The notes under the pieces are model-generated. The model was given only the letters and a program-made list of their open reading frames with translations. It did not search any database and had not been told where the DNA came from. From Leifsonia sp. TF02-11 (GTDB taxonomy: Bacteria > Actinomycetota > Actinomycetes > Actinomycetales > Microbacteriaceae), in assembly GCF_017565305.1 (NCBI RefSeq), contig NZ_JAGEKP010000032.1, positions 1-64,000 on the forward strand: DNA of 64,000 nucleotides, in the 5' to 3' direction. The position numbers and the translations under genes were made by a program. Of this stretch, positions 1,588 to 55,317 are shown in pieces. Numbering within the stretch: the first letter of the stretch is position 1; the number at the start of each line of letters is the position of its first letter.

Positions 1588-1619
1588 ATTCGTGACGAAT
1601 CCCGACATTCATGACGAAC
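1588..1619. repeat. Shortened nested-palindrome element
   Basis: One intact 13-mer ATTCGTGACGAAT (1588-1600), spacer CCCGAC, then a decayed 13-mer ATTCATGACGAAC (1607-1619). The central 15-mer found in the full 53-bp elements is missing. It is the first member of the local cluster. Confidence 0.8.
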
Positions 1620-1674
1620 CTTGTACCGTCGCGCTTCGCCGCGAGGGTGCGACCGGGTTGCACTTGCGCTCGAC

Positions 1675-1727
1675 ATTCGTGACGAATCCGCACTTTCGTG
1701 GCACGAATCATGACATTCGTGACGAAT
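1675..1727. repeat. 53-bp nested-palindrome element, copy 1
   Basis: ATTCGTGACGAAT (1675-1687), 6-bp spacer, central 15-mer TTTCGTGGCACGAAT with one mismatch (1694-1708), 6-bp spacer, ATTCGTGACGAAT (1715-1727). Together with the next two copies it forms a 109-bp periodic array: 53 bp of element plus a 56-bp spacer that itself contains a small GC hairpin. Confidence 0.9.
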
Positions 1728-1783
1728 CTTGCATCCCCTGCGCTGCGCCCCAAGGGGCGACGGGGTGGCACTTACGGCTCGAC

Positions 1784-1836
1784 ATTCGTGACGAATCGGC
1801 ACATTCGTGCCACGAATGTCGACATTCGTGACGAAT
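1784..1836. repeat. 53-bp nested-palindrome element, copy 2
   Basis: ATTCGTGACGAAT (1784-1796), spacer CGGCAC, ATTCGTGCCACGAAT (1803-1817), spacer GTCGAC, ATTCGTGACGAAT (1824-1836). It starts exactly 109 bp after copy 1. Confidence 0.9.
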
Positions 1837-1892
1837 CTTGCGGCGCCCGGGGGCGCAGGTTCGTGCGGCAGATTCGTGGCGGGGGTGGCGAC

Positions 1893-1945
1893 ATTCGTGA
1901 CGAATGTCGAGATTCGTGGCACGAATGTCGGGATTCGTGACGAAT
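1893..1945. repeat. 53-bp nested-palindrome element, copy 3
   Basis: ATTCGTGACGAAT (1893-1905), spacer GTCGAG, ATTCGTGGCACGAAT (1912-1926), spacer GTCGGG, ATTCGTGACGAAT (1933-1945). It starts exactly 109 bp after copy 2. A lone partial unit, ATTCGTGGC, lies just before it at 1872. Confidence 0.9.
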
Positions 1946-2312: not shown

Positions 2313-2329
2313 GGCCGACCGGGAGTGGT

Positions 2330-2372: not shown

Positions 2373-3737
2373 CTACCGGGCCGGCTGTACGGCGGCGACG
2401 ATCGCTGCAGCGGTCTCGCGGCCGACGCGGATCGCGCCGTCCACGTGCTGGTAGCCCTTGCCCGCCATGTCGCTGCAGGAGAAGTGGATGGGGCCGACCG
2501 GGGTGCGGAGGTCCGAGCCGTAACGGGCGAGGCCGCCCATGTCGAAGCTGGCGGCGTAGGCGCCGCGCGTCCACTCCTCGCTGCCCCAGTCGCTCTCGTA
2601 GTAGACGACGGGGCTCAGGGCCTCGACGCCGTAGTAGTGCGACAGCGACTCGAGGATGCGCGCCTTGCGCTCCTCCGGCGACAGCCGGAACACGTCGTCG
2701 GCGGCCTCGTCGGAGACGAAGCCGACCAGCGTTCCGCGCGGGTCGCCGTGATAGCTGTTGTCGTACGCCTCGTGCACGAGCTCGTACGGGCTGAACGCCG
2801 TGCCGCTGTAGCCCTGCTCGCGCCAGAACGGCGTCTCGTAGACGGCGTGCACCTTGATCACGAAGCCCATCGACAGGTGCTGGTGCAGCTGCTGCTGGCG
2901 ACGCGGCAGCGGCGGGTCGTAGGAGATGCGGCTGATCAGCACGGGAGGAACGGCGAGGATCGCGAACCGGGCGCGGACCTCCACACCGTCCGCAATAGCC
3001 GTGACGCCCGACTCGTCCCAGCGGAGCGTGCGCACCGGCGCGTTCAGGTGCACGTCGTCCCCGAGCCGCTCGGCGAGCAGCAGCGGCACCTGCTGGAGGC
3101 CGCCCTTGACGCGCTTGTCGAGGATGAAGTCGGCGTCGACCAGGTTGCTGAAGCTTCCCGCGCTGGCGGCCATCAGGAGGGCCTGCAGCGCCGAGAAGGC
3201 GTGCGCCGGCTTGGTGAGCATCGCACCGGCGATGAACATGCCGATGTTGCGGCGGGCTTCCTCGTCGTCGGTCTGCGTCTCCAGCCAGCGGCGGAACGAG
3301 ATCTCGTCGAGCTCCTTGGCCTGCGGGTGCTCCCACGGCCGGTCGGGGTCGATCTCGGCGACCAGCGCGTCGAGGCGCTCGATCAGCCCGACGATCTCCT
3401 TCTCGGTGGCAGGGGCGACAGGGAAGATCTCGCCCTCGAACGTGCGCCGTGCGCCGTTCTCGCCGAGGTAGATGTTGATCCCCTCGCGGTAGCGGGAGTA
3501 GGTCTCCAGTCCCAGCTCGCCGAGGGTCTCGATGAGCGCGTCCTGGTCGGGCGACACCCACTGGCCGCCGATCTCCAGCGTCGCGCCGTCGATGTCGTTC
3601 GTCCAGAGGCGGCCGCCGACGCGGTCCCTGGCCTCCAGGACGGCCACGCTCAGACCGGCCTTCTTCAGCTCCGTCGCGGCCGTGAGGCCGGAGGCTCCAG
3701 CGCCGACGATGACGACGTCACGTTCGATGCTGTCCAT
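2373..3737 (-). CDS. Flavin-containing amine oxidase, putrescine-oxidase-like
   Basis: A 454-residue FAD enzyme of the monoamine/polyamine oxidase family, which oxidises a primary amine to an aldehyde with release of ammonia and hydrogen peroxide. Visible: the N-terminal dinucleotide motif VVIVGAGASGLTAATEL, the FAD-contact segment EARDRVGGRLWT, the substrate-side stretch EIGGQWVSPDQDALIETL, and the C-terminal flavin-binding region around SDMAGKGYQHVDGAIRVGR. The overall pattern resembles actinobacterial putrescine oxidases (family knowledge), but the amine is inferred. An ATG 18 bp upstream at 3755 is in frame, but the strong GGAGGAG ribosome site falls inside that extension, 9 nt before the ATG at 3737, so 3737 is preferred. 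No partner genes adjoin it. Confidence 0.87.
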   Translation of the reverse strand: MDSIERDVVIVGAGASGLTAATELKKAGLSVAVLEARDRVGGRLWTNDIDGATLEIGGQWVSPDQDALIETLGELGLETYSRYREGINIYLGENGARRTFEGEIFPVAPATEKEIVGLIERLDALVAEIDPDRPWEHPQAKELDEISFRRWLETQTDDEEARRNIGMFIAGAMLTKPAHAFSALQALLMAASAGSFSNLVDADFILDKRVKGGLQQVPLLLAERLGDDVHLNAPVRTLRWDESGVTAIADGVEVRARFAILAVPPVLISRISYDPPLPRRQQQLHQHLSMGFVIKVHAVYETPFWREQGYSGTAFSPYELVHEAYDNSYHGDPRGTLVGFVSDEAADDVFRLSPEERKARILESLSHYYGVEALSPVVYYESDWGSEEWTRGAYAASFDMGGLARYGSDLRTPVGPIHFSCSDMAGKGYQHVDGAIRVGRETAAAIVAAVQPAR

Positions 3738-8538: not shown

Positions 8539-9105
8539 ATGGGAAAGCTGATCGTCGTGCAGTTCATCACGCTGGACGGGGTCGTGGAGGATCCGGACGG
8601 GAGCGACGGGACGCCGTTCGGCGGCTGGGCGATGCGGTTCGGTCCGCAGGGCGTCGCCGGCGACAAGTTCCGGCTGGGCGAGATCCTGGAGACGGGCGTC
8701 CTGCTGTTCGGGCGCCGCACCTGGGAGCACTTCAGCACGCTGTGGCCGGCGCGCGACGATCCGTTCTCGCAGGCAATGAACCGGGCGTCGAAGGCCGTGC
8801 TGAGCACCGGCCCGCTCGACGTCGCCCGGTGGTCGGGAACCCGTCAGGCCGCCGACCTCGACGCCTGGCTGGACGAGACGCTGCCGGAGCGCGACGTGGT
8901 CGTGATCGGGAGTGGCGCCGTCGTCGCCCAGCTGGAGGCCGCCGGCCGGGTCGACGAATACCGGCTGCTGACGTTCCCGACGGCGGTCGGAGCGGGCAGG
9001 AGGCTCTTTCCGGAGGGGCGGCTGCTGACCCTGCTCTCGTCCGAGCAGGTGGGACCGGCGAGCCTCACCCGTTACGACACCGCCACGGCGACGACCGCGG
9101 CGTGA
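8539..9105 (+). CDS. Dihydrofolate-reductase-fold protein (RibD C-terminal domain family)
   Basis: A 188-residue cytosolic protein of the RibD_C/DHFR-like reductase superfamily. It begins KLIVVQFITLDGVVEDPDGS, the usual opening of this family, and continues with a nucleotide-contact region VLLFGRRTWEHF, then VVVIGSGAVVAQL and the conserved tail DEYRLLTFPTAVGAGRRLF. It is probably an NADPH-dependent reductase of unknown substrate. AGGAGG stands 6 nt before the ATG. It follows the sigma factor by 65 bp and may be cotranscribed. Its TGA (9103-9105) touches the edge of a 53-bp palindromic element. Confidence 0.82.
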   Translation: MGKLIVVQFITLDGVVEDPDGSDGTPFGGWAMRFGPQGVAGDKFRLGEILETGVLLFGRRTWEHFSTLWPARDDPFSQAMNRASKAVLSTGPLDVARWSGTRQAADLDAWLDETLPERDVVVIGSGAVVAQLEAAGRVDEYRLLTFPTAVGAGRRLFPEGRLLTLLSSEQVGPASLTRYDTATATTAA

Positions 9106-9106
9106 C

Positions 9107-9159
9107 ATTCGTGACGAATCCCGACATTCGTGCCACGAATGTCGGGATTCGTCACGAAT
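9107..9159. repeat. 53-bp nested-palindrome element, copy 4 (symmetric)
   Basis: ATTCGTGACGAAT (9107-9119), CCCGAC, ATTCGTGCCACGAAT (9126-9140), GTCGGG, ATTCGTCACGAAT (9147-9159). Here the whole 53 bp is one palindrome apart from the central base, because the outer 13-mers face opposite ways and the spacers are complementary. GAC and GTC flanks extend it to 59 bp (9104-9162). It separates two convergent genes. Confidence 0.93.
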
Positions 9160-9174
9160 GTCGGGCTTCGGGGC

Positions 9175-10347
9175 TCACGGATGCGCGGGCACCAGCGCCT
9201 CGAACGTCTCGGCGACCCAGTCGGCGATGATGCCAGCCACGTACGGCATGTTGTCGATCGAGATGTGCTCGGTGCCGCCCTCCGGGTCGTCGAAGATCCG
9301 CAGCGCGCGGCGGGGACTGTTCACCGCCTGCTCGTACGTCTCGTGTGCGTAGCGCACCGGGATCTGCCGGTCGCCGGCGCCGTGCGTGATGAGCAGCGGA
9401 GCGGTGATGCGCTCGGCGACGCCGTTCAGGTGCATCGAGCTCGTCTTGGCGATGAACTCGTCCATGTCGTTCACGCCCCACACCCAGAACACGTGGTCCC
9501 AGTAGTGCGGAACCGGGTTCTCGCCCTCGCGGTTGCGCCGCGCCTCCTGAACCGCGGCCCAGTCGTGGTTCGCACCCCAGGCCACGGCCAGCGCGAGCCG
9601 CTTCTCGAACGCGGCCGCCCGCGGGGCGTAGTAGCCGCCGAGCGACCAGCCGACGATGCCGATCCGGGCGGGATCGGCGCCGAGCTCCTCGGCGTTCGCC
9701 TCGATCCAGTCGACGATGGCCGCCGCCCAGACCTCGGTGTCGTAGCGGGCGGTGAGGCCGCGCAAGCGGAGGGCCTCGCCCGATCCGGGGGTGTCGATCA
9801 TGAGAGTGGAGATGCCGCGCTCGGCGAGCATCGCCGGGAACCCGGAGTAGTACATCATCTCCTTGGTCGAGTCGAGGCCGTTCCACTGGATGACCACGGG
9901 GTGCGGGCCGTCACCGGGAGCCCGGTAGAAGTAGCCGGGCAGCGATGAGTCCTCGTACGGCACCTCGACGCGGGTCAGCGGGACCCGGCTGAGCTCGACA
10001 TGCTTCAGCAGGAGGTCGATCGACTTCTGATACGCCGCGTTGCGGCCCTCCCACCGCGGTGACTGCAGGCGCTCGGCCTGTGAGGTGTAGAGCGACGCCC
10101 GGTAATACGTCTCCCCGGCGCCGATCCGGCGTCCTGCCGCCTCATCGGCGCGGGCCTTGGCGACGAGCCGGTCGGCGACGGCCTCCCACGAGGCGTACAG
10201 CTCGGCCGTGCCGGCGTCGTCGCCGTTCTGGGAGGCGAGCAGCACCGGCTTGCACGCCCGGTCGACCTCGTCGATGTAGCCGCCGTTGTTGAGGGTCGCG
10301 ACGACGGCGAGGCTCCAGACGTAGTTGGTCGGGAAGTACATGAACAC
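9175..10347 (-). CDS. Alpha/beta hydrolase resembling 2,6-dihydroxypseudooxynicotine hydrolase / FrsA-like
   Basis: A 390-residue alpha/beta-hydrolase. The nucleophile elbow is GWSLGGYYAPRAA; the acid and histidine are likely in the GAGDRQIPVRYAHE and DPEGGTEHISID regions. A helical N-terminal part of about 150 residues precedes the core, as in the C-C-bond hydrolases related to 2,6-dihydroxypseudooxynicotine hydrolase. That family cleaves acyl-aromatic compounds, which would fit the last step of the aromatic operon it belongs to. GTG at 10347 is chosen because AAGGAG lies 7 nt before it; an ATG follows 6 nt later. It is the last gene of the operon that begins at 15367. The substrate is inferred only. 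Confidence 0.78.
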   Translation of the reverse strand: MFMYFPTNYVWSLAVVATLNNGGYIDEVDRACKPVLLASQNGDDAGTAELYASWEAVADRLVAKARADEAAGRRIGAGETYYRASLYTSQAERLQSPRWEGRNAAYQKSIDLLLKHVELSRVPLTRVEVPYEDSSLPGYFYRAPGDGPHPVVIQWNGLDSTKEMMYYSGFPAMLAERGISTLMIDTPGSGEALRLRGLTARYDTEVWAAAIVDWIEANAEELGADPARIGIVGWSLGGYYAPRAAAFEKRLALAVAWGANHDWAAVQEARRNREGENPVPHYWDHVFWVWGVNDMDEFIAKTSSMHLNGVAERITAPLLITHGAGDRQIPVRYAHETYEQAVNSPRRALRIFDDPEGGTEHISIDNMPYVAGIIADWVAETFEALVPAHP

Positions 10348-16883: not shown

Positions 16884-16936
16884 ATTCGTCACGAATCTCG
16901 AGATTCGTGGCACGAATGTCGGGATTCGTGACGAAT
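16884..16936. repeat. 53-bp nested-palindrome element, copy 5
   Basis: ATTCGTCACGAAT (16884-16896), CTCGAG, ATTCGTGGCACGAAT (16903-16917), GTCGGG, ATTCGTGACGAAT (16924-16936). It lies between the ROK stop and the next plus-strand gene. Confidence 0.92.
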
Positions 16937-38633: not shown

Positions 38634-38644
38634 ACGTGGGTTGC

Positions 38645-44044: not shown

Positions 44045-45541
44045 TCAGGCGGCGGGGATGGACTCGGTCGCGGCCGCGCGCAGCGGGCCGGGATCGTCGG
44101 ACAGGCGGCTGTTCGGCAGCAGGATCGACGCGACCACCCCGACGAGGTAGGTCGCGGCGAGCGCGACGAAGACGGGGACGAAGACGCCCTGATAGACCTG
44201 CGCGATCTGCTGCTGCACGGCCGCGCTCTGGGTGTGAACGACGGCAGGGGTCAGCGTCGCGGGGTCGAGTCCCGCGGGCAGGAGCGCGACGACGGTCGCG
44301 CCGATGATGCCGCCGATGAGGGCGGTGGCGACGGTCGCACCGACCTGGCGGACGAGGTTGACGCTCGCGGTGATCGCACCGGTCTCGGTGCGCGGCACCG
44401 CGCTCTGCACGACCGCGACGATCAGGCTCATGAAGGCGCCGGTGCCGAGCCCCACGACCGCCATCGCGATCGTGGGAGCCCAGAGCGGCGCACCGACGGG
44501 AAGCAGGGCCATGGCGCCGAGCCCGGCGGCGCCGAGCGCGGTGCCGACGAGCGGATAGACGCGGTAGTGGCCGGTGCGGCTCACCAGCCAGCCGGTGACG
44601 AGATTGCTGACCAGCATCCCGAAGACCGTCGCGATCGGGACGAGCCCGGAGACCGTAGCGCTGGTGCGGTACGCCATCTGGAAGTACGTGGGCAGGTAGG
44701 AGGTGATCGAGAACAGCCCGATGCCGACGATCGCGGAGATCACGGTTCCGGTGGCGACCGTGCGGTCACGGAAGTGGCCGAGCGGCACCAGCGGCTCCTC
44801 CACCCGCAGCTCGACGACGAAGAAGACGGCGAACGCCACGGCGGCGACGACGAACGCGACGACCGTGGCGAGCGCCTGCGAGCGATCGCCCACTCCGGTG
44901 ACGGCGAGCACCAGGGCGACCAGTCCGACGGTGAGGGCGATCGCACCCCCGACGTCGAACCTCCCGCCTCGCCCCGGCTCGATGTGCGGCACCGCGACGA
45001 TCGCGAGTGCCAGCGCGACGACGCCGACGGGCGCGTTGATCCAGAACACCCACGGCCAGCCCCAGTTGTCGGTGATGATGCCGCCGAGCACGGGCCCGAT
45101 GAGAATCGCGACCGGGAAGGCCGCGCCGACGATCGCCATGAACTTCGGCCGCTGCCGCGGGGTCGTCGTCTCGGCGATGATCGTCTGCGACATCAGCTGC
45201 AGGCCGGCCGAGCTCATCCCCTGCACGATGCGCGCGACGATCAGCCAGACGATGCCGTTCGCGAAGCCGCAGGCGACGGACGTGACGATGAACACGACGA
45301 CGGAGGCCAGGAAGACCGCGCGGGGTCCGATCCGGTCGCCGAGCTTGCCGAGCACCGGCAGCAGGACGGTGCTGGCGAGCGTGTAGCCCACGACGATCCA
45401 GCTCATGTGCTCGAGCGCGCCGAGCTGGCCGGCGACCGTGGCGATCGCGGTGCTGACCACGGTGTTGTCGAGGGCGCCGAGGAAGGACACGACGAGGAGG
45501 GAGGTGACGAGGAGGCGGAACCTCAGTGGCGAGAGCGGCAT
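44045..45541 (-). CDS. MFS transporter, DHA2 (EmrB/QacA) type
   Basis: A 498-residue membrane protein with about 14 helices. The first helix carries SFLGALDNTVVSTAIATVAG (motif D1 of the DHA2 family), then GKLGDRIGPRAVFLASVVVF (motif A) and AILIGPVLGGIITDNWGWPW (motif C). Such proteins are drug/H+ antiporters. Here it precedes the second glycoside series and could export the aglycone or other toxic phenols, or possibly import a substrate. A TTGAAA/TAGAAT promoter lies upstream. Confidence 0.85.
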   Translation of the reverse strand: MPLSPLRFRLLVTSLLVVSFLGALDNTVVSTAIATVAGQLGALEHMSWIVVGYTLASTVLLPVLGKLGDRIGPRAVFLASVVVFIVTSVACGFANGIVWLIVARIVQGMSSAGLQLMSQTIIAETTTPRQRPKFMAIVGAAFPVAILIGPVLGGIITDNWGWPWVFWINAPVGVVALALAIVAVPHIEPGRGGRFDVGGAIALTVGLVALVLAVTGVGDRSQALATVVAFVVAAVAFAVFFVVELRVEEPLVPLGHFRDRTVATGTVISAIVGIGLFSITSYLPTYFQMAYRTSATVSGLVPIATVFGMLVSNLVTGWLVSRTGHYRVYPLVGTALGAAGLGAMALLPVGAPLWAPTIAMAVVGLGTGAFMSLIVAVVQSAVPRTETGAITASVNLVRQVGATVATALIGGIIGATVVALLPAGLDPATLTPAVVHTQSAAVQQQIAQVYQGVFVPVFVALAATYLVGVVASILLPNSRLSDDPGPLRAAATESIPAA

Positions 45542-45638
45542 ACGCGAGACCCGAACGATCGGGTGATCGACGCGACGGTTTGTGCCCTCGCCGCAACGTC
45601 ACGGTGAGGAACGGGCCTGCGGCCCCGACGTCATGGTG

Positions 45639-45668
45639 ATTCTAAGACAATCTTCCGCCTGTTTTCAA
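45639..45668 (-). promoter_or_regulatory. Candidate promoter of the MFS gene
   Basis: On the minus strand, TTGAAA (45663-45668) is followed after 18 nt by TAGAAT (45639-45644), close to sigma-70 consensus. It lies about 100 bp upstream of the MFS ATG in an otherwise GC-rich region. Confidence 0.5.
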
Positions 45669-45682
45669 CCTAAGTACTCAGG
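45669..45682. promoter_or_regulatory. Near-palindrome next to the MFS promoter
   Basis: CCTAAGTACTCAGG is a 14-bp palindrome with one mismatched pair, directly upstream of the -35 box. It may be an operator for the neighbouring TetR regulator. It lies 3 bp from the next 53-bp palindromic element. Confidence 0.4.
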
Positions 45683-45684
45683 CG

Positions 45685-45737
45685 ATTCGTCACGAATATC
45701 GAGATTCGTGCCACGAATGTCGACATTCGTCACGAAT
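45685..45737. repeat. 53-bp nested-palindrome element, copy 6
   Basis: ATTCGTCACGAAT (45685-45697), ATCGAG, ATTCGTGCCACGAAT (45704-45718), GTCGAC, ATTCGTCACGAAT (45725-45737). The stop codon of the TetR gene (45730-45732 on the minus strand) lies inside the last 13-mer. Confidence 0.92.
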
Positions 45738-46332
45738 CTCCGGCCGCGCTCAGCGCCGTCGCGAGGCGGTGGAGGCGGTGCTGGTAGGCCGCGAAGTCCT
45801 CGTCGTCGACCAGGAAGTGCGCGCCGTACATCGTGCGCAGCACGCACTCGGAGTACAGCACGCGCGCCACCTCGTGCCCGTTCGGCACCGCGAGCGCACC
45901 ACCGAGGCGCGCGACGAACCGGCGGGACTCCGCCGCGCCGGCGCCGAGGAGCTCCGGATCGTCGACCGACCGCGAGATCACCGCCCTCAGGAAGGCGGCG
46001 TGCGCGTCGAACAGCCGCGTGATCACAGCCACGGCGCGACCGGCGGCGTCAGTCACGCCGTCGATGGTCGCGCCGCTCTCGAAGAGTTCGTCCTCGGTCT
46101 CCCGCATCTGCCTGAGCCCGAGCTCGTAGACCGCGGCGAAGAGCCCGGCCCTGCCGTCCACCCGGGCGTAGATCGAGGGTGCGGAGACCCCCGTGCGCCG
46201 GCAGACCTCGGAGATCGACAGCGCCTCCCAGCCTCCGGCCTCGAAGAGCTCCGCGGCGGTGCGGAGCACGCGCTCCCAGCTCTCGCGGCTCCTCGCTTGA
46301 AGGGGCTCTCGCTCGGCGAACTCGGCGGTCAT
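45730..46332 (-). CDS. TetR-family transcriptional regulator
   Basis: A 200-residue regulator. The N-terminal helix-turn-helix is in RVLRTAAELFEAGGWEALSI and SEVCRRTGVSAPSIYARVDG; the all-helical C-terminal part would bind the ligand. It is cotranscribed with the flavin monooxygenase (31-bp gap) and divergent from the P450, so it may control both, and perhaps the MFS gene downstream. ATG 46332 has GGAGG just before it. The protein ends GDS with its TGA taken from a 53-bp element, so the present C-terminus may have been set by that element. Confidence 0.85.
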   Translation of the reverse strand: MTAEFAEREPLQARSRESWERVLRTAAELFEAGGWEALSISEVCRRTGVSAPSIYARVDGRAGLFAAVYELGLRQMRETEDELFESGATIDGVTDAAGRAVAVITRLFDAHAAFLRAVISRSVDDPELLGAGAAESRRFVARLGGALAVPNGHEVARVLYSECVLRTMYGAHFLVDDEDFAAYQHRLHRLATALSAAGDS

Positions 46333-46363
46333 GCCTCCATCCTCGCGCACGCCCTCGCCCCGG

Positions 46364-47593
46364 TCAGGGCGCCGCAGGGGAGACGATCCCCGCTCCCATC
46401 TCGTCGAGCTGCGCGATGATCTCCCCCGGACTCTTCTCGCCGACCTGCTTCTGGAGGATCGGCGTGTGGTCGAGCACGAAGTCCCGCACGGGGCGCACGA
46501 CGCGCGGCGCATGGTGGAAGGCCCGCCCGAGGATGTACGCCTGCTGCACCTGCGCGGTGGTGTGCGGGATGCGCGGCGTCTCGTAGCGCACCAGCGCGGC
46601 CTCGACCGCAGAGCGATCCGCGAGGTCGACGCCGGCGAGGGCCTGGCCGAGGAAGTAGCCGTCGCAGATCGACATGCCCGCGCCGTAGGCCGCATAGGGC
46701 GAGGTGGCGTGCGCGGCATCGCCGGCGAGGGTGACCCGGCCTTTCGACCAGCGCTTCAGGGGCGTGCGGTCACGGATCGGCCAGCGCTGGAGGTGATCGG
46801 CGGGGGTCGCCCTGACGAGCGCTTCGAGCGCGCCGCCGAAACGCTGCGCGAGCGCGAGGGCGTGCGCGTGCAGGTCGGTCGGCGGCTCTCGGCGCGGGTC
46901 CCACGCCTCGAGCACCCACCACTGGAATCCCTCCTGGTCGCCCCGCCGGATCGACGTGTAGCTCCCCTGCACCCGGCGGTCATGGGTCAGCACCGCCTCC
47001 CCCACCTCCGCCGTCGGAACGGGTTCGAACGTGTACCCGCCGATGATGTGGAGACGGTGGTCGCGCTTCTCGCTCGGGCCCCAGAGCCGGCGTCGCACCA
47101 GCGAGTCGATGCCGTCGGCGCCGACGAGGACGGGCGCCTGGAGCGTCTCGCCGTCGCGCAGGGCCAGGCGCACACCGTGGTCGCCGGTGTCGTCGATCTC
47201 CACCACCTCCTGATTCGTGCGCAGCATGCCCTCCGGCAGCGCGGCGAGCATCCGCTCGTACAGGTCGGGGCGGAGCATCCCGATGAACCCGCCGCCGAAC
47301 TCCTCGCGCACCCGCTCGGGGATCCGGATGTCGGCGCGCACGTGGCCGCTCGCGCTGCGGAAGGTCGTGTGGCACGGCGCTCCGAGTTCGGTGGTGTCGA
47401 CTCCCATCGCCCGGAGCGCCTTGATGGGCGGCGGCCACAGATTCAGGATGTTGCCGGCCGGGCGAGCCTCCGGGTACCGCTCCAGGATGATCACCGGGTG
47501 TCCGGCGGTGTGCAGCGAGAGCGCGCTGGCCATTCCGGCCGGCCCGCCGCCCAGGACGACGATCGGCGCCCCGGTGATCCCACGTTCGTTCAT
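46364..47593 (-). CDS. FAD-dependent monooxygenase
   Basis: A 409-residue group A flavoprotein monooxygenase, distinct from the one at 12136-13269. The FAD motif is IVVLGGGPAGMASALSLHTA, the DG motif VLVGADGIDSLVRRRLWG, and the GD motif VTLAGDAAHATSPYAAYGAG. It could hydroxylate a phenol or oxidise a ketone. It is divergent from the self-sufficient P450 with a shared 265-bp promoter region and upstream of the TetR gene in the same direction. Confidence 0.86.
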   Translation of the reverse strand: MNERGITGAPIVVLGGGPAGMASALSLHTAGHPVIILERYPEARPAGNILNLWPPPIKALRAMGVDTTELGAPCHTTFRSASGHVRADIRIPERVREEFGGGFIGMLRPDLYERMLAALPEGMLRTNQEVVEIDDTGDHGVRLALRDGETLQAPVLVGADGIDSLVRRRLWGPSEKRDHRLHIIGGYTFEPVPTAEVGEAVLTHDRRVQGSYTSIRRGDQEGFQWWVLEAWDPRREPPTDLHAHALALAQRFGGALEALVRATPADHLQRWPIRDRTPLKRWSKGRVTLAGDAAHATSPYAAYGAGMSICDGYFLGQALAGVDLADRSAVEAALVRYETPRIPHTTAQVQQAYILGRAFHHAPRVVRPVRDFVLDHTPILQKQVGEKSPGEIIAQLDEMGAGIVSPAAP

Positions 47594-47641
47594 GTCCGCT
47601 CCTCATCGAGTTGCGACGACTGTAGGGGCGATCGAGCAAAA

Positions 47642-47656
47642 TGTAAAGCAATTACA
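47642..47656. promoter_or_regulatory. TGTAA-N5-TTACA operator-like palindrome
   Basis: Perfect 5-bp arms TGTAA (47642-47646) and TTACA (47652-47656) in an AT-rich patch about 50 bp upstream of the monooxygenase ATG and 19 bp from the P450 -35 box; a candidate regulator site for the divergent pair. Confidence 0.4.
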
Positions 47657-47674
47657 ATTCACTTCGGTCGATTA

Positions 47675-47703
47675 TTGACATAAGCGCCGAGGCTGTGTAG
47701 CGT
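47675..47703 (+). promoter_or_regulatory. Candidate promoter of the P450 gene
   Basis: TTGACA (47675-47680) is followed after 17 nt by TAGCGT (47698-47703). The perfect -35 box and optimal spacing in this otherwise GC-rich DNA support a housekeeping-type promoter, about 155 bp upstream of the P450 ATG. Confidence 0.55.
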
Positions 47704-47716
47704 CGTCGTCTACACA
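47694..47716. promoter_or_regulatory. Operator-like inverted repeat overlapping the P450 -10 box
   Basis: TGTGTAG (47694-47700) and CTACACA (47710-47716) are perfect 7-bp arms with a 9-nt spacer. A repressor bound here would cover the -10 region, so the nearby TetR (45730-46332) is a good candidate ligand-dependent repressor. Confidence 0.55.
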
Positions 47717-47858
47717 GGCGGGGTGAGGGCGCCCGGCACCACGGCCGGCAGCGAATAATCCCCCTCGGCGCCCTCAGCGCGCCGGGCGAGCACGAGGACT
47801 CACGCGTCCCGCTTGTGCATGCCTCCAGCGGTGTCGCGGCCCAGCACTGGAGCAGAGG

Positions 47859-50078
47859 ATGACCATCTCCCCCACGCCGCCGGCGTGCCCTTTCAGCGAT
47901 CCCGAGCGGCTCTTCGCCGACCTCGACGCGACGCGGCGCGAGGGCGGCGCCCCGCCCGCCGAGACCTTCGGCGGCGCCCGCGTCTTCACGCGCTACGACG
48001 ACATCGTCGCCGCCCTCCACGACCCGGGGACCTTCTCGTCGCAGCCGGCGGTCGGCACCGTCCCGCCGCCGTGGCGCGAACAGTTCGAGGGGCGCGTGCC
48101 GAGCCGCGGAACGCTGCTCGGCGTCGACAACCCCGACCACGACCGGCTGCGATCGAGCGTCAACACCTTCTTCATGCCTCGCAGGCTCGCACGGTTCGAG
48201 CCGTGGATCCGCGAGGAGGCGCACCGGCTCGTCGACGGATTCGCCGGGCGCGGGGAGGCCGATCTCAAGACGGTCTTCGCCCTCCCGTTGCCGCTGCGGG
48301 TCGTCAGCCGGATCGTCGGGCTCGACCCGGATCGCGCGGAGTGGGTCGGCGAGGCGCTCGGCTTCTTCCTCGGCCCCAGGGACCTCTACCACCCGGGTAC
48401 GCCGGACGAGAAGGCCGCCAAACTGCTCGACCTCCACGATCACCTCCGTGAGCTGATGGAGCTGCGCCGCCATGACCGCCAGGACGACCTCATCAGCCAC
48501 ATCTGGGACCAGCGCGACAGCGGCGCCGTCGAGCTGACCGACTTCGAGATGCTGTCGATGTTCCCCGGGCTGATGCTCGCCGGCCATGAGACGTCGTCCA
48601 ACCTGATCTGCATGGCGCTCGCCCACTTCCTGGCCGACCCGGAACTGTATGCACGCGTGCAGCGCGACGACGCCTCCCGGGCGCGCGCACTGGAGGAGGT
48701 GTTCCGGTTCGAGTCCGCCATCACCGGGATGAAGCGGCTCGTCACCCGCGACACCGAGTTGGGCGGGGTCGGTCTGCGTGCCGGCGAGGACGTCTTCCTC
48801 GCCTACGCCGCCGGCTCCCGTGACCCCGGTCGCTTCGACGACCCGGGGCGGATCGATGTCGACCGCACCTGGGAATCGCCGCACCTCGGGTTCGGGCAGG
48901 GCGTGCACGCCTGCCTCGGCGCTCCGCTCGCTCGCCTGCTGCTGCGTGTGGAACTCGGCGTGCTCCACGAGCGCCTGCCCGACCTCCGGCTCGCGGTCCC
49001 GGAGGAGGGGCTGCGGCACACGGTCGTCTCCGAGGGCCGAGGGCTCGTCTCGCTGCCGCTCGCCTGGACGCCGACGGCGCCGACCGCACGCCCGCGCGTC
49101 TCGGCGTCCGCGAGCGCAGCGGCACCGGAGTCGCCGGCTCCCGATTCGCTGCCCGTGGTGGTGAGCGACCGTCGCGAGGTGGTCCCGGGTGTCGTCGAAC
49201 TCACTCTCGTCGCCGACGGCGGCAGCCTCCCATCATGGCGGCCCGGTGCGCACATCGACCTGGAACTGCCGGACGGCCTGGTGCGCCAGTACTCGCTCGC
49301 GGGCGACCCCGCCGAGGCCGGGTACCGGGTGGCCGTGCTGCGGGAGGCCGCGGGACGCGGCGGTTCCCTGGCCGCGCACGAGCGGGTCGCGGTCGGCGAC
49401 CGGCTGCTGATCCGCGGTCCACGCAACCACTTCGCGCTGCGGCCGGCTCCGTTCTCGCTGTTCCTCGCCGGTGGGATCGGCATCACGCCGCTGCTGCCGA
49501 TGGTCGCGGAGGCCGAGGCGGCAGGCGCCGGCTGGCGACTGCTCTATCTGGGGCGATCGCTCGCGACGATGGCGTACGCCGCCGAGCTCGAGGAGCGCTA
49601 TGGCGCGAACGTGTACCTGTGGCCCAGCGGCGAGCGCGGTCGCTACGACGTCGACGACCTGTGGAGGCGCCTCCCCGCCGGCGGCCTCGTCTACGCGTGC
49701 GGACCGGAGGAGCTCCTGCTGGCCGTCGAGGAGTCGGCGCGCCGGGCCGGGCGCACCGACAGCGTCGTCGTCGAGCGTTTCGCGCCGCGCGCGGTCTCGG
49801 CCCTCCCGAATCGCCCGTTCGACATCGAGCTGCGCCGCACGGGCGCCACCGTGCGCGTCGCGGCGGACGAGTCCGCCCTCGACGCCGTCAACCGTGCGGG
49901 CGCGAACGTGCTCTCGACCTGTCGGGAGGGCACCTGCGGCACCTGCGAGGTCCGCGTGCTCGCCGGGACTCCCGAGCACCGCGACTCGGTGCTCGGTCTG
50001 GAGGAACGGCTCGCCGGGGACACCATGATGGCCTGCGTCTCCCGGTGCATCGGCGAGCGGCTCGTGCTCGATCTCTGA
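47859..50078 (+). CDS. Self-sufficient cytochrome P450 (CYP116B-like fusion to FMN/2Fe-2S reductase)
   Basis: A 739-residue fusion. Residues 1-400 form the P450: I-helix AGHETS (241-246), ExxR at E280/R283, heme segment FGQGVHACLGAP with Cys352. A Ser/Ala/Pro linker (about 405-432) leads to a phthalate-dioxygenase-reductase-like part: FMN site RQYSL (476-480), NADH site GGIGITPLLPM (538-548), and a plant-type 2Fe-2S domain with Cys688, Cys693, Cys696 and Cys726. Such class VII P450s need only NAD(P)H and O2 and hydroxylate or dealkylate aromatics. All cofactor residues look intact. The natural substrate is unknown; the neighbouring flavin monooxygenase suggests aromatic catabolism or O-demethylation. 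Confidence 0.93.
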   Translation: MTISPTPPACPFSDPERLFADLDATRREGGAPPAETFGGARVFTRYDDIVAALHDPGTFSSQPAVGTVPPPWREQFEGRVPSRGTLLGVDNPDHDRLRSSVNTFFMPRRLARFEPWIREEAHRLVDGFAGRGEADLKTVFALPLPLRVVSRIVGLDPDRAEWVGEALGFFLGPRDLYHPGTPDEKAAKLLDLHDHLRELMELRRHDRQDDLISHIWDQRDSGAVELTDFEMLSMFPGLMLAGHETSSNLICMALAHFLADPELYARVQRDDASRARALEEVFRFESAITGMKRLVTRDTELGGVGLRAGEDVFLAYAAGSRDPGRFDDPGRIDVDRTWESPHLGFGQGVHACLGAPLARLLLRVELGVLHERLPDLRLAVPEEGLRHTVVSEGRGLVSLPLAWTPTAPTARPRVSASASAAAPESPAPDSLPVVVSDRREVVPGVVELTLVADGGSLPSWRPGAHIDLELPDGLVRQYSLAGDPAEAGYRVAVLREAAGRGGSLAAHERVAVGDRLLIRGPRNHFALRPAPFSLFLAGGIGITPLLPMVAEAEAAGAGWRLLYLGRSLATMAYAAELEERYGANVYLWPSGERGRYDVDDLWRRLPAGGLVYACGPEELLLAVEESARRAGRTDSVVVERFAPRAVSALPNRPFDIELRRTGATVRVAADESALDAVNRAGANVLSTCREGTCGTCEVRVLAGTPEHRDSVLGLEERLAGDTMMACVSRCIGERLVLDL

Positions 50079-50094
50079 CAGTCGCGTGCCCGCG

Positions 50095-50147
50095 ATTCGT
50101 CACGAATGTCGCGATTCGTGCCACGAATGTCGCGATTCGTCACGAAT
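50095..50147. repeat. 53-bp nested-palindrome element, copy 7
   Basis: ATTCGTCACGAAT (50095-50107), GTCGCG, ATTCGTGCCACGAAT (50114-50128), GTCGCG, ATTCGTCACGAAT (50135-50147). Just after the P450 stop. Confidence 0.92.
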
Positions 50148-50181
50148 GTCACGATCGACCGCGAGAGTCGGGAGGATCGGG

Positions 50182-50234
50182 ATTCGTCACGAATGTCGCG
50201 ATTCGTGCCACGAATGTCGGGATTCGTCACGAAT
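50182..50234. repeat. 53-bp nested-palindrome element, copy 8
   Basis: ATTCGTCACGAAT (50182-50194), GTCGCG, ATTCGTGCCACGAAT (50201-50215), GTCGGG, ATTCGTCACGAAT (50222-50234). The 3' end of the D-Ala ligase gene runs through it and stops in its last 13-mer (50187-50189). Confidence 0.92.
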
Positions 50235-51212
50235 GTCGGGCGGGGCGGGCGCCGCTGCGGGCAGCGCCGCGTCGAGCAGCGCCGCGACGAGGGCGGGGTA
50301 GTCGAGACCCGTCGCGGCGAACATCCGCGGCACCTGGGACTGCTCGGTGAAACCGGGCGTCGTGTTCACTTCGTTCAGCACGACGCCCTCCGCGGTGACG
50401 AAGAAGTCGAAGCGGGCGACTCCCGCGCAGCCGAGCGCGTCGTAGAGGGCGCGGGCCGCCGCCTCGATGGCCGCGTGCTCGTCGGCGGACACGCGCGCCG
50501 GCAGCGTGAACGACGCCGAACCGTCGTACTTCTGCTCGCGGTCGAAGACCGCCCCGTCGGCCACGGCGATCTCGAGGGTCGAACCGGCGCGCACGACGCC
50601 GTCGCGGTCGCGGAACAGGGCGATGTCCACTTCGCGTCCGGAGACGAACGCCTCGATCAGCGCCGAGCCGCCCGCCGCCCGCGCGGTGCCGATCGCGGCG
50701 GCGAGCTCCTCGGACTCCCTGACCACGGTGACCCCGTTGCTCGACCCGCCGAACGTCGGCTTCACCACGAACGGCGGCTCCAGCGGTAGCTGCGAGGCGT
50801 CGAACCGGTCGTCGACGAGCACGGCGGGAGCGGTGCGGATGCCGAGCGACTCCGCGACGAGCTTCGTGACCCACTTGTCCATGCCCAGCGCGCCTGCGCG
50901 CACCGGGGAGCCGACGAACGGCACGCCGGTCAGGGTCAGCAGTCCGGCGACGGCGCCGTCCTCGCCGTCCACGCCGTGCAGCACGGGGAACGCCGCATCG
51001 CACGACACCAGGCTGGAGACCGCCTGAGCGGGATGGATCGGGCCGTCGTGGAGGTGCCAGCCGCCTCGCCGGTCGACGGTGAGCGCGACGGCGGTCAGCC
51101 CGAGGGCGCGGACCGCGCGCACGACGGCGGCGGCCGACGCGAGCGACACGTCGTGCTCCTCGTTTGCGCCGCCGCCGATCACCGCGACACGGCGGATGGT
51201 CGAATCACGCAT
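50187..51212 (-). CDS. D-alanine--D-alanine ligase family protein
   Basis: A 341-residue ATP-grasp ligase that joins two D-amino acids for peptidoglycan precursors. Visible: VAVIGGGANEEHDVSLASA at the start, VLHGVDGEDGAVAGLLTLTG, GALGMDKWVTKLVAESLGI, PFVVKPTFGGSSNGVTVVRE, the loop FDREQKYDGSASF, and the metal-binding end VVLNEVNTTPGFTEQSQVPR. It overlaps the upstream alanine racemase gene by 8 nt. The last ~17 residues (PDIRDESRHSWHESRHS) are translated from a 53-bp palindromic element, so the natural C-terminus has probably been extended. A VanC/VanG-like D-Ala-D-Ser role cannot be excluded. Confidence 0.85.
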   Translation of the reverse strand: MRDSTIRRVAVIGGGANEEHDVSLASAAAVVRAVRALGLTAVALTVDRRGGWHLHDGPIHPAQAVSSLVSCDAAFPVLHGVDGEDGAVAGLLTLTGVPFVGSPVRAGALGMDKWVTKLVAESLGIRTAPAVLVDDRFDASQLPLEPPFVVKPTFGGSSNGVTVVRESEELAAAIGTARAAGGSALIEAFVSGREVDIALFRDRDGVVRAGSTLEIAVADGAVFDREQKYDGSASFTLPARVSADEHAAIEAAARALYDALGCAGVARFDFFVTAEGVVLNEVNTTPGFTEQSQVPRMFAATGLDYPALVAALLDAALPAAAPAPPDIRDESRHSWHESRHS

Positions 51213-52383
51213 GAGCCACCTCGCCGATCGTCGCTGCCGACGCGGCCGACGCACCCGGCGAGGCCGACGCACCCGGCGCCGTCGACCGGTGGATGCGCGC
51301 GACGCGGCTGCCGATCCGCGTGACGATCTCGTGCTCGATCGTCCCCGACCAGCCGGCCCATTCGGCGACCGTCGGCTCGCCGTGGTCGCCCGGGCCGAAC
51401 ACCGTGACCGACTCCCCCGCCGCGAGGAGGTCGTCGCCGGTGTCCACGACCAGCATGTCCATCGAGAACCGGCCGACGACGGGCCGGCGGCGGCCGCGCA
51501 CCAGCACCTCGGCACGCTCCGACGCCGCCCGCGGCAGGCCGTCGCCGTAGCCGACGGGCAGCAGCGCGAGGTTCGTGCGCCGATCGGCGACGTGCTCCAG
51601 CCCGTAACCGATCCCTGTCCCCGCCGCGACCTCCCTGGAGCCGACGACGGTCGTCGTCAGCGAGAGCGCAGGGCGCAGCCGGTCGGAGGTGCCGGACGGG
51701 TCGATCCCGAACAGCCCGGCGCCGATGCGGTGCAGCCCGAACCCCGAGCCGACGCCGGTCACGGTCGCGGCCGTCGCGGCCAGGTGGGCGACGGAGGGCG
51801 CCAGGCCGCGGCGCTGCGCCGTCCGCATCGCGTTGATGAAGACCAGCCGCTCACGCCGGTTCTGCGGGTGGTCGGGCCGGTCGGCGCACGACATGTGGCC
51901 CATCACCCCGACGACGCGGATACTGCCGAGCGCCTCCAGCTCGCGCGCGACGCCGCAGAGCGCCGACCATTCGGAGGCGGGGGCGCCGTCACGCGCCATG
52001 CCGACGTCGATGTGCAGGTGGACGCGCGCACGCCGTCCGAGCAGCGCCGCCGCGCGGCCGACCGCGTGCAACAGCCGCACGCTCTGGACCGCGAGATCGA
52101 TGTCGCCTGCGACCGCCGCCGCGAAGTCGGCGTCGACCGGGTTGAGCCAGCTCAGGATCGGCGCGCGGACTCCCGCCGCCCGCAGCGCGAGCGCCTCGTC
52201 GATGGAGGTCACCCCGATGGAGGTGGCTCCCGCCGCCAGCACGGACTGCGCGATCGCGCCGTGACCGAACGCGTCGGCTTTGAGCACCGCCATCAGGCGG
52301 CCTCCCGTCGCGGCGGCGAAGTAGGCGGCGTTCGAGCGGATCGCTTCGTCGTCGACGACGAGTTCGGAGGTCCACGTCATCAT
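51205..52383 (-). CDS. Alanine racemase
   Basis: A 392-residue PLP-dependent enzyme that interconverts L- and D-alanine for cell-wall synthesis. The Schiff-base lysine is in LMAVLKADAFGHGAIA (normally KANAYGHG). Other parts: HLHIDVGMARDGAPASEW, VVGVMGHMSCADRPDHP, GFGLHRIGAGLFGIDPSG, GTGIGYGLEHV with the catalytic-type Tyr, and MDMLVVDTGDD. A low-complexity Ala/Ser tail (STAPGASASPGASAASAA) follows residue ~365. It is coupled to the ligase gene downstream. Whether this is the only racemase or an extra, resistance-type copy cannot be told. Confidence 0.85.
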   Translation of the reverse strand: MMTWTSELVVDDEAIRSNAAYFAAATGGRLMAVLKADAFGHGAIAQSVLAAGATSIGVTSIDEALALRAAGVRAPILSWLNPVDADFAAAVAGDIDLAVQSVRLLHAVGRAAALLGRRARVHLHIDVGMARDGAPASEWSALCGVARELEALGSIRVVGVMGHMSCADRPDHPQNRRERLVFINAMRTAQRRGLAPSVAHLAATAATVTGVGSGFGLHRIGAGLFGIDPSGTSDRLRPALSLTTTVVGSREVAAGTGIGYGLEHVADRRTNLALLPVGYGDGLPRAASERAEVLVRGRRRPVVGRFSMDMLVVDTGDDLLAAGESVTVFGPGDHGEPTVAEWAGWSGTIEHEIVTRIGSRVARIHRSTAPGASASPGASAASAATIGEVAHA

Positions 52384-52481
52384 CGGCCCCCGGTGCTCGC
52401 GAATCGACGCACGCTGGTGTCATGCATTCCCTCAGAATGTGGGATACCGGAAGCCGATCCATCCCTCCAACTATGCGAACC

Positions 52482-52501
52482 CGTCATCCGCAGGGATGAC
52501 G
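52482..52501. promoter_or_regulatory. Perfect hairpin between racemase and glucosidase genes
   Basis: CGTCATCC (52482-52489) pairs with GGATGACG (52494-52501), 4-nt loop. It sits in the 235-bp divergent region, about 100 bp from either start, and may be an operator or an RNA hairpin. Confidence 0.4.
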
Positions 52502-52618
52502 TCAGAGCAGCATGGGAGCCCGAGATGTGCGCCGAAAGGTGGCGTCTCCGATCGCGAAACGCGACACTCGGCGCACAGGTGATCTTCCACCGCGGCGACC
52601 CGGCACCAGAATGAATCC

Positions 52619-55255
52619 ATGCCGCAGGTCGCAGACGTCGCAGACGGAGCCGAGAACGAACGCATTGCGCGAGCGGAGGACGGCTCGGCCGGCTGGCGCG
52701 ACTGGGGGCCATACGTCGCCGAGCGCGCCTGGGGCACCGTCCGCGAGGACTACAGCGCCGACGGCGACGCGTGGGAGTTCTTCCCGCACGACCACGCCAG
52801 GAGCCGCGCCTTCCGGTGGAACGAGGACGGCATGGCCGCCTTCTCGGACCTCAAGCAGACCTGGTGCCTCGGGCTCTCGCTGTGGAACGGGCGCGACCCG
52901 ATCCTCAAGGAGCGGATGTTCGGCCTCGCGGGCCCGCAGGGGAACCACGGGGAGGACGTCAAGGAGTACTGGTGGTACCTCGACGGCACGCCGACCCATA
53001 CCTGGAACACCTGGCGGTACCACTATCCCCAGGCCGAGTACCCCTACGCCGACCTGATCGCCACGAACGCGGCCCGCAGCAGGCTCGAGCCCGAGTACGA
53101 GCTCGTCGACACCGGCGTGTTCGACGACGGCCGGTACTGGGTGGTGACCGTCGACTACGCCAAGGACGGCCCGCACGACCTCCTGATGCGCATCACGATC
53201 GAGAACGCCGGACCCGATCCCGCGACGCTGCACGTGCTGCCGACTCTCTGGTTCCGCAACACCTGGTCGTGGGGTTACGACGTCGAGAAGCCGTCGCTGC
53301 GCCTCGACGGCGAGCGCATCGTCGGATCCGGGCCGTCGGGAACGCTGGCCCTGCGCGGCGAGGGCGCGCCGGAGGCACTCTTCTGCGACAACGAGACGAA
53401 CACCGCGCGGCTGTTCGGCGCGACCGCCGACGAGTCCCCCGCGTTCCCGAAGGACGGGATCAACGACCATGTGATCGACGGGGCGGCGACCGTGAACCCC
53501 GACCACACCGGCACCAAGGCGGCCCTCCACTACACGGTCGAGCTCGGTCCGGGCGAGACGCGCGTGATCCGAGTGCGGCTGACCGGCACCGAAGCGGCGC
53601 CCGCGGGCCTCGAGGCGCAGGAGCTCGGGCCCGGCTTCGACGCCGTCGTCCAGCAGCGCGCAGCGGAGGCCGACGCGTTCTACGCGGCCCTCCCGAACGC
53701 CCCGACCGACCCGGACGAGGCCCGCGTGCTGCGCCAGGCGTTCGCCGGGCTGCTCTGGTCGAAGCAGTACTTCCACTTCAACGTGGACAAGTGGCTCGAC
53801 GGCGACCCGGGGAGTCCTCCCCCGCCTCCCGGACGCGGCAGCGTGCGCAACGGGCAGTGGCGGCACTTCGACGCCGACGACGTGATCCTGATGCCAGACC
53901 CCTGGGAATACCCGTGGTTCGCCGCGTGGGATCTCGCCTTCCACTGCGTGACGATGGCGCACATCGACCCCGCGTTCGCCAAAGCACAGCTGATCCTGCT
54001 CTTGCGCGAGTGGTACATGCACCCCAACGGGCAGCTGCCCGCGTACGAGTGGAACTTCTCCGACGTCAACCCGCCGACGCACGCGTGGGCGGCGATCCAG
54101 GTGTTCCTCATCGACGGCGGCACCGACTACGACTTCCTCGCCCGCATCCTCCACAAGCTGCTGATCAACTACACCTGGTGGACGAACAGCAAGGACAAGG
54201 ACGAGGACGACCTGTTCGAGGGCGGCTTCATGGGCCTCGACAACATCGCGCCGCTCAACCGGTCGACGCTGCCGCCGGAGGTCGGGACGCTGGAGCAGGC
54301 CGACTCGACCGGCTGGATGGCGAACTACGCCCTCGACCTCCTCGAGATCGCCCTGCGGCTGGCGCGCCGCAACGACGTCTACGAGGACGTCGCCGTGAAG
54401 TTCGGCGAGCAGTTCCTGCGCATCGCGGGCTCGGCCAACAGCTCGGGGATGTGGGACGACGAGGACGCCTACTTCTACGACCTGCTCCACCTGGCCGACG
54501 GCAGGGAGGTGCCGCTCAAGGTGCGCTCGCTGGTCGGTCTCGTGCCCGTCGTCGCCTCCCTCGCGTACGACGAGCCGGGCGTGCGGACCATCCCGGAGTT
54601 CCGGCAGGTGCTGAACCGGTATCTGGCGAAGCATCCAGAGCTCGGGGCGTCGTTCCATCGCAGACGCTTCGGCGACCAGCAGGTCTACCTGCTGGCGATG
54701 GTCTCGCCGGAGCGGTTGACGCGGATCCTGAAGCAGGTCTTCGACACCGCGGGGTTGCTCAGCGACCACGGGATCCGCGGCGTCTCCGCCTACCACCGCG
54801 AGCACCCGTTCACGGTGGAGGTCGGCGGCGTCGAGGCGTCGGTCGACTACGAGCCGGCCGAGTCGACCTCCCCGCTGTTCGGCGGCAACTCGAACTGGCG
54901 CGGGCCGGTCTGGTTCCCGCTCAACGCCCTCCTGATCGCCGCGCTGCAGCACTACGAGTCGCACGGCGAGACCGGTGTGCGCATCGAGGACCCGCTCGGC
55001 TCGGGCAACGCGCTGACCCCCGGGGAGGCGGCGGACGACCTCTCCCGCAGGCTGATCTCGCTGTTCCTCCCCGGCCCGGACGGGCGGCGACCGGCCGACG
55101 CCCGCTACCCGCTGCTCTCGGCCGACCCGCGCTGGAAGGACAACATCTTCTTCTACGAGTACTTCGACGGTGACACCGGCCAGGGCCTCGGCGCCTCCCA
55201 CCAGACCGGCTGGACGGCGATGGTGGCGCACCTGATCCTGACGCGGAGTCGATGA
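52619..55255 (+). CDS. GH63/MGH-type glucosidase
   Basis: An 878-residue glycoside hydrolase of the (alpha/alpha)6-barrel GH63-like group, widespread in actinobacteria and often annotated glucosidase. Visible: WGPYVAERAWGTVREDYSAD near the start, DPWEYPWFAAWDLAFHCVTM, GQLPAYEWNFSDVNPPTHAW, GNSNWRGPVWFPLNALLIAA, and the end GEAADDLSRRLISLFLPGPDGR. The GxSNWRGPxW block is characteristic and contributes to the active site. It has no signal peptide, so it is cytosolic. It may trim mannosyl or glucosyl compatible-solute glycosides. It stands alone, before a 53-bp element. Confidence 0.87.
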   Translation: MPQVADVADGAENERIARAEDGSAGWRDWGPYVAERAWGTVREDYSADGDAWEFFPHDHARSRAFRWNEDGMAAFSDLKQTWCLGLSLWNGRDPILKERMFGLAGPQGNHGEDVKEYWWYLDGTPTHTWNTWRYHYPQAEYPYADLIATNAARSRLEPEYELVDTGVFDDGRYWVVTVDYAKDGPHDLLMRITIENAGPDPATLHVLPTLWFRNTWSWGYDVEKPSLRLDGERIVGSGPSGTLALRGEGAPEALFCDNETNTARLFGATADESPAFPKDGINDHVIDGAATVNPDHTGTKAALHYTVELGPGETRVIRVRLTGTEAAPAGLEAQELGPGFDAVVQQRAAEADAFYAALPNAPTDPDEARVLRQAFAGLLWSKQYFHFNVDKWLDGDPGSPPPPPGRGSVRNGQWRHFDADDVILMPDPWEYPWFAAWDLAFHCVTMAHIDPAFAKAQLILLLREWYMHPNGQLPAYEWNFSDVNPPTHAWAAIQVFLIDGGTDYDFLARILHKLLINYTWWTNSKDKDEDDLFEGGFMGLDNIAPLNRSTLPPEVGTLEQADSTGWMANYALDLLEIALRLARRNDVYEDVAVKFGEQFLRIAGSANSSGMWDDEDAYFYDLLHLADGREVPLKVRSLVGLVPVVASLAYDEPGVRTIPEFRQVLNRYLAKHPELGASFHRRRFGDQQVYLLAMVSPERLTRILKQVFDTAGLLSDHGIRGVSAYHREHPFTVEVGGVEASVDYEPAESTSPLFGGNSNWRGPVWFPLNALLIAALQHYESHGETGVRIEDPLGSGNALTPGEAADDLSRRLISLFLPGPDGRRPADARYPLLSADPRWKDNIFFYEYFDGDTGQGLGASHQTGWTAMVAHLILTRSR

Positions 55256-55264
55256 CGGGCGACG

Positions 55265-55317
55265 ATTCGTCACGAATCTCGTGATTCGTGCCACGAATGT
55301 CGACATTCGTCACGAAT
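55265..55317. repeat. 53-bp nested-palindrome element, copy 9
   Basis: ATTCGTCACGAAT (55265-55277), CTCGTG, ATTCGTGCCACGAAT (55284-55298), GTCGAC, ATTCGTCACGAAT (55305-55317). It begins 9 bp after the glucosidase stop. Confidence 0.92.

Follow-up and report, generated by a model that had tools for sequence, protein, structure and literature searches.

Hairpin-capable palindromes lying between convergent genes, just past their stop codons, are a feature of bidirectional intrinsic terminators, and matS and Noc/SlmA sites are dispersed palindromic sites for proteins. REP/BIME elements bear GTAG or CGTC tags and have been proposed to act in termination and protein binding, and REPINs are REP doublets moved by RAYT (PMC2817692, PMC3733652; PMC3116915 for REPINs). 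Here, we describe a family of nested palindromic elements present in a 64,000-nucleotide stretch of Leifsonia sp. TF02-11 (contig NZ_JAGEKP010000032.1, positions 1 to 64,000; hereafter the window). The window element represents one of several versions of a family found across the genus, whose members pair two 13-mer dyads at a distance of exactly 40 bp and often place a third at the midpoint between them. With about even confidence, resting on sequence comparison, we read it as a Leifsonia-specific, REP/REPIN-like non-coding family whose copies would serve, where they stand, as two-way signals at gene ends that are recognised by their sequence, with a candidate factor and barrier.

The family belongs to a known kind, the REP/REPIN/BIME-like gene-end palindromes. 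A preliminary description of the window had suggested, as one of three options, REP/BIME-like elements, which remains the nearest kind in view of the high copy number, the extragenic location at gene ends, the tandem arrays and the alternating subtypes, although the link to RAYT did not hold. As portrayed in the relevant parts of PMC2817692 and PMC3733652, REP/BIME elements likewise exceed 100 copies and are palindromic, extragenic and clustered with alternating subtypes; the Leifsonia unit differs in being untagged, in its nested 53 bp as compared to 20-40 bp, and in having no associated transposase. With REPINs, as far as the relevant sections of PMC3116915 define them, it shares paired palindromes at a preferred spacing, extragenic location, singlets as remnants, tandem clusters that include the flanks and two strongly conserved ends. 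Unlike REPINs, it occurs in genomes devoid of a Y1/RAYT match (none in 28), is bound to gene ends, keeps a 40-bp register with a third dyad and comes in species-specific versions. What is new is the combination: a Y1 gene was not found and tags are absent, the nested dyads keep a 20/40-bp register and the versions are species-specific. No description of the element family turned up in the open-access literature covered, where two works on other subjects contain the exact 13- and 15-mers.

Anatomy and distribution of the family

The unit is ATTCGTSACGAAT-N6-ATTCGTGSCACGAAT-N6-ATTCGTSACGAAT, 53 bp in all (13-6-15-6-13). The preliminary description had reported ten copies at six places, nine full and one shortened, with one of the full copies (9107-9159) wholly palindromic; all were recovered (Table 1), the palindrome with 29 pairs over 9104-9162, whereas 100 dinucleotide shuffles produced no unit. 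Eight of the nine units are exact, all 19 13-mers and nine 15-mers of the window belong to element places, and Rfam 15 at gathering score gave no match in the window. Genes were predicted by our own codon-usage script, on which all gene-end positions given here rest. In these calls, all element places of the window adjoin predicted stop codons, and the units at 45685 and 50182 reach into predicted gene ends, so that "gene 3' end" describes the location better than the earlier term "intergenic".

Table 1. Positions and surroundings of the elements in the window
Positions	Feature	Surroundings and remarks
1588-1945	array (shortened copy and three units)	between convergent genes 600-1523 (+) and 2373-3737 (-)
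1588-1619	shortened copy: 13-mer, 6 bp, degenerate second 13-mer	read by eye
1675-1727	53-bp unit, one mismatch in 15-mer
1784-1836	53-bp unit, exact
1893-1945	53-bp unit, exact
9107-9159	53-bp unit, one large palindrome	1 bp past stop of gene 8539-9105 (+); convergent gene 9175-10347 (-)
16884-16936	53-bp unit	18 bp past stop of gene 15594-16865 (+); tandem gap
45685-45737	53-bp unit	at end of gene 45730-46332 (-); 8 bp overlap with predicted end
45738-50094	4.4-kb segment: TetR-type regulator, FAD monooxygenase-like gene, P450/ferredoxin gene	between elements 45685 and 50095/50182
50095-50147	53-bp unit	16 bp past stop of gene 47859-50078 (+)
50182-50234	53-bp unit	48 bp overlap with predicted end of gene 50187-51212 (-)
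55265-55317	53-bp unit	9 bp past stop of gene 52619-55255 (+); tandem gap

The assembly to which the window belongs (G000; 5,087,634 bases in 50 contigs) contains 226 exact 13-mers and 124 units with at most three mismatches, and none of the pattern read backwards. In 602 kb of its sequence, picked around elements and analysed in detail, 66 units have no mismatch, 29 have one, a single unit has two and another has four, with none between four and nine. When units with at most three mismatches were sought in 60 genomes including our own, 28 of them Leifsonia, this exact form was found in four, all Leifsonia: G000 (124), G026 (L. shinshuensis DP-L11, the nearest named relative seen for the window genome; 73), G024 (an uncultured Leifsonia metagenome-assembled genome, or MAG; 45) and G008 (Leifsonia sp. 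Leaf336; 21). Exact matches among named records were limited to these last three.

A general pattern of two ATTCGKSMCGAAT 13-mers exactly 40 bp apart, with at most three mismatches, was present in 23 of the 28 Leifsonia genomes, in 5 (G006) to 354 (G014) copies, and its reversed control in none of the 28; counts were also high in G000 (131), G019 (120), G016 (118), G023 (104) and G026 (89). The preliminary description had allowed for copies being absent from the rest of the genome and from relatives, which these counts contradict. Among 398 genomes of the taxonomic family, the general pattern matched nine of the ten Leifsonia drawn and four of the 388 others, the latter once or twice each with two mismatches (two matches in G035, one each in G221, G222 and G238) and, by eye, at long hairpins. 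Loosened to a pair of ATTYG-NNN-CRAAT at 40 bp, one mismatch being allowed, the pattern occurred among 396 genomes of the order solely in our own (138 matches), the only Leifsonia drawn, and in none of the 395 others.

Arrays of 13-mers with a 40-bp period and 27-bp interspaces were seen in G014, the richest genome, at L263:13852-14104 (G014:C10) and at L249 (the rsrA end), one such array running into an assembly gap of N. A CRISPR-like 13+27 array was dismissed as an identity for the family, the 40-bp period being the sole shared feature, and so were DNA-uptake signals, for which 5 to 354 copies are too few. Arrays also stand at the ends of G000 contigs C1, C5, C12, C24, C27, C48 and C6 (L138, L147, L154, L121, L122, L128 and L151), or a few hundred bases at most away from them; the starts of C1 and C12 have units in common and look like a single split array.

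In G000 the 13- and 15-mers are near-invariant, the dyad centre is almost always G or C and the spacers are compositionally biased. Since the dyads have the flank consensus GAS...STC, the 6-bp spacers correspond to the joined flanks of abutting neighbouring dyads. Elsewhere in the genus it is the middle that varies, the outer 13-mers and their 40-bp register being kept: G021, G002 and G027 have a weak W3-N9-W3 dyad there, and G009, G020 and G013 have the layout 13-7-13-7-13, with the dyad centres keeping their distance of 20 bp. AT triplets stand at set positions, roughly every 10 bp, regardless of which letters they contain; in G025 the middle ones are weak. A second subtype, ATTTGCG.CRAAT-N27-ATTTGCGGCAAAT, has the layout of the first and is interleaved with it in the G000 arrays L140, L143, L157 and L127; in the G026 cluster L132:15344-15656 the two subtypes alternate every 64-66 bp, and 412 kb of G015 contain eight elements of several versions. 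At one place compared between G021 and G015, both outer 13-mers differ together, the middle is alike and the aligned flanks are 91-95% identical. The dyad register and an AT/GC code are common to all versions.

Position at gene ends and the hairpin alternative

Of 35 placed clusters in G000, 21 are convergent, 13 tandem and one divergent, as compared to 29, 123 and 81 element-free gaps of at least 60 bp (Fisher test; convergent excess p 3e-9, divergent shortage p 2e-5). The convergent/tandem/divergent counts point the same way elsewhere, with 20/8/2 in G027, 10/4/0 in G025, 3/3/0 in G021 and 5/7/0 in a mixed set; left out are seven clusters at contig edges, six of G000 and one of the mixed set, as well as a cluster of G027 that was called intragenic, whereas no G000 cluster was so called. 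Of the 35 clusters in tandem gaps, 33 lie closer to the stop of the upstream gene. Median distances from the stop codon are 9 bp in G027, 11.5 in G021, 15 in G000 and 30 in G025.

Such tight distances would also suit a signal at the RNA level, in which the transcribed 53-mer folds into a long hairpin, so that in both directions transcription stops or the mRNA is protected, the likeness in sequence being a by-product of copying. The mean RNA fold energy of the elements, -24 to -31 (-24.0 in G000) against -18.3 for random 53-mers from our own genome, is in line with this explanation, as are the orientations of asymmetric 13-mers in G021 and G002 (inverted to direct, 27:12 and 16:5) and the above-chance pairing at several positions in these two genomes. 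Compared with shuffled spacers, the fold is clearly better in G021 (mean z -2.03) and weakly better in G000 (-0.56). Furthermore, other long hairpins occupy the same kind of gap: in 23 of 43 element-free convergent gaps of G000 they beat all 15 shuffles, and the mean stem score is 30.6 in such gaps versus 30.5 in 14 element-bearing ones. The element therefore fills a hairpin's place. However, no T-run accompanies the elements of G000 (with the two strands pooled, T stays at or below 0.26 throughout the 15 flank positions), and no terminator-like site was found at the four units in the scanned stretch 45000-58500 of the window. The asymmetric 13-mers of G025 are mostly direct (11 to 2) and those of G027 mixed (17 to 12), and the G000 sites conserve letters rather than pairing. 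Over 97 G000 units, spacers pair at 2.52 of 6 positions versus 3.19 expected and are fully complementary in two units versus 5.1 expected, so that units which are perfect palindromes throughout are rare. When each cluster contributes a single unit, pairing is 2.90 versus 3.26, with 64 of 2000 shuffles as low, and since the effect weakens to this extent we do not claim active avoidance of whole palindromes. The outer-centre test in G000 likewise weakened, from 31/96 over all units to 17/40 (p 0.43). Altogether we consider the RNA-level explanation rather unlikely. The label of terminators, also put forward in the preliminary description, fits very well as to position: like bidirectional intrinsic terminators, these are hairpin-capable palindromes in convergent gaps, directly past stops. 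It fits badly in that they lack a T-run, keep letters rather than pairing in the window lineage, where the variable positions do not stay paired, and form a repeat family of one genus.

Further gene-end hairpin repeat families of 50-80 bp were noticed, which differ by genome and to which some of the hairpins in element-free convergent gaps belong: two in G000, with 17 and 5 copies in the sequence analysed, and others in G015 with 3-4 copies each (loci L124:14425-14504, L139:19672-19730, L142, L144 and L155 in G000; L302, L305, L307, L309 and L310 in G015). In the window, a long palindrome at 58171-58233 between convergent genes (fold -54.9) shares by eye the GAAGGGCACGT arm of the 17-copy G000 family, and a partial GAAGGGCACGT arm lies at 38599-38644.

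Palindromic sites in phased sets, enriched in convergent gaps, might also bind a chromosome-organising protein or gyrase gathering at convergent gene ends, and BIME-2 repeats do bind gyrase according to PMC2817692. This is very unlikely in our view: the listed G025 and G027 sites have no origin or terminus bias, and a general factor leaves five family-free genomes unexplained. An origin-proximal, nucleoid-occlusion-like placement was likewise dropped, no bias being seen in G025 (59/59 sites) or among the G027 sites listed (to ~3.78 of 4.16 Mb). The dyads are short, near-fixed and scattered over the chromosome like matS or Noc/SlmA sites, but unlike these they come in threes at 20-bp steps and are bound to gene ends, with no position bias seen.

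Transposase search, residence and segment loss

No transposase or RAYT gene had been noted beside the copies in the preliminary description, and the search elsewhere extends this statement: the Y1_Tnp profile PF01797 matched none of the 28 Leifsonia genomes, whereas five of 14 control genomes were matched. A RAYT engine is thereby excluded as far as this profile can tell. No GTAG or CGTC tag was found at the element ends in G000, where the flank consensus stands instead. Membership in the RAYT-REPs was rejected on these two grounds.

We investigated the history of the elements by mapping clusters between species, those less than 700 bp from a locus end being skipped and the G000 stretches having been picked around elements. 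Starting from exact units, 20 clusters of DP-L11 were followed: 14 have their counterpart at a single G000 place that bears an element, and two more at two contig ends with elements, by which the elements appear to be old residents; one further cluster mapped by one flank and three were unmapped. Of 14 MAG clusters, six mapped to one place, one to contig ends and one by one flank, with six unmapped, and both Leaf336 clusters mapped by one flank only. Copy number at a given place varies. At the rsrA gene end, 10 of 22 readable genomes have the family in several layouts, one (G009) has a degenerate trace and 11 have none; five of the 28 genomes had no readable end and the G002 row was set aside for an apparently wrong frame. 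In Leaf336 (L233), the element place at this end holds short tandem copies of rsrA's own last bases (GTGCACTGA).

Two chromosomal segments are bordered by elements. The 4.4-kb segment of the window is absent from G026, where one fused element combines the left flank of the first element with the right flank of the last, and a segment of about 10.4 kb bordered by two elements in G021 is absent from G015, which has a single joining element. In G002 the latter segment is present without either element. Recombination between element copies would explain both absences. Segments missing from a relative that keeps one joining element, and imperfect palindromes directly past genes, also recall integron attC-type recombination sites bordering movable gene segments. 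We find this highly improbable, as ordinary recombination between repeats accounts for both segments, the elements are dispersed rather than gathered in a single array, and the attC core motif was not seen by eye.

The varying presence at the rsrA end, the state of G002 and the coexistence of several versions in one genome, with up to 354 copies, might be expected of selfish non-autonomous palindromes (REPIN or MITE-like) that some transposase moves in trans, gene ends merely tolerating insertions. Against this explanation, which we judge unlikely, stand the lack of any Y1/RAYT match, the places shared between most DP-L11 clusters and G000, and site letters that outlast the spacers. Two empty-site alignments tried (G021 versus G002, one place) gave no clear target duplication, the borders being blurred by divergence. 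A phage or plasmid origin was discarded, no element being found in viral contigs and no plasmid or phage similarity for one 161-base stretch of the window.

Site constraint and the candidate gene-end factor

Constraint on the sites is seen in seven ortholog pairs, picked as intact in both species and biased to that extent, in which 2/266 site positions (0.8%) have changed, as compared to 9/84 in spacers and 84/774 in flanks (~11% in both) and 6/21 at dyad centres. Since the dyad register and AT/GC code are common across species, we favour recognition of DNA dyads at gene ends. The gene-end reading also draws on the position past stop codons, the old residence of the elements, the joint change of both outer 13-mers between G021 and G015, and the other hairpins that occupy element-free convergent gaps of G000. 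The core would be a pair of 13-bp dyads (ATTYG-NNN-CRAAT) at a distance of exactly 40 bp, frequently joined by another dyad, weaker or stronger, halfway between them, which places centres at 20-bp steps; in the window lineage this middle dyad would have become the fixed 15-mer. Lying a few to some tens of bp past stop codons, the elements would function in place: a sequence-specific factor may recognise the phased dyads and, once bound, form a symmetrical two-way barrier at gene ends, serving termination or insulation. New copies would arise via a non-Y1 route and tandem duplication. The multi-dimer protein sites envisaged in the preliminary description agree with the near-fixed sites, the 20-bp dyad spacing and the free spacers, though no protein can be named.

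Several points weigh against this gene-end reading, beginning with the selection of the ortholog pairs. In the comparison of the unselected window with G026, no ortholog aligned for the place at 1588, one 13-mer was all that remained of 9107, 55265 was degenerate, 16884 was kept with two mismatches, and 45685 and 50095/50182 were fused into one exact unit. Gene conversion could keep the sites alike, although the spacers are not homogenised. Whole-element pairing somewhat above chance in G021 and G002 fits a hairpin. No binding protein was found, PF01797 being the only profile searched. Finally, the general pair pattern is absent from five of the 28 genomes (G004, G007, G011, G017 and G022) and the family is missing from half of the readable rsrA ends; no single copy is therefore indispensable.

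An extension of the gene-end reading, which we put forward tentatively and as somewhat improbable, is that the 20-bp dyad geometry stays fixed and the letters are re-specified per species, the dyads of one element changing together, under a sequence-specific DNA-binding factor that itself evolves fast; the elements would then make up a genome-scale, two-way terminator or insulator system that co-evolves with its protein.

RAYT transposases are the usual explanation for REP-like repeats. Leifsonia genomes contain up to 354 copies in a fixed register, under site-level constraint and with no Y1 match in any of the 28. With many copies, constrained sites and no Y1, either another engine spreads these palindromes or a gene-end function keeps them.

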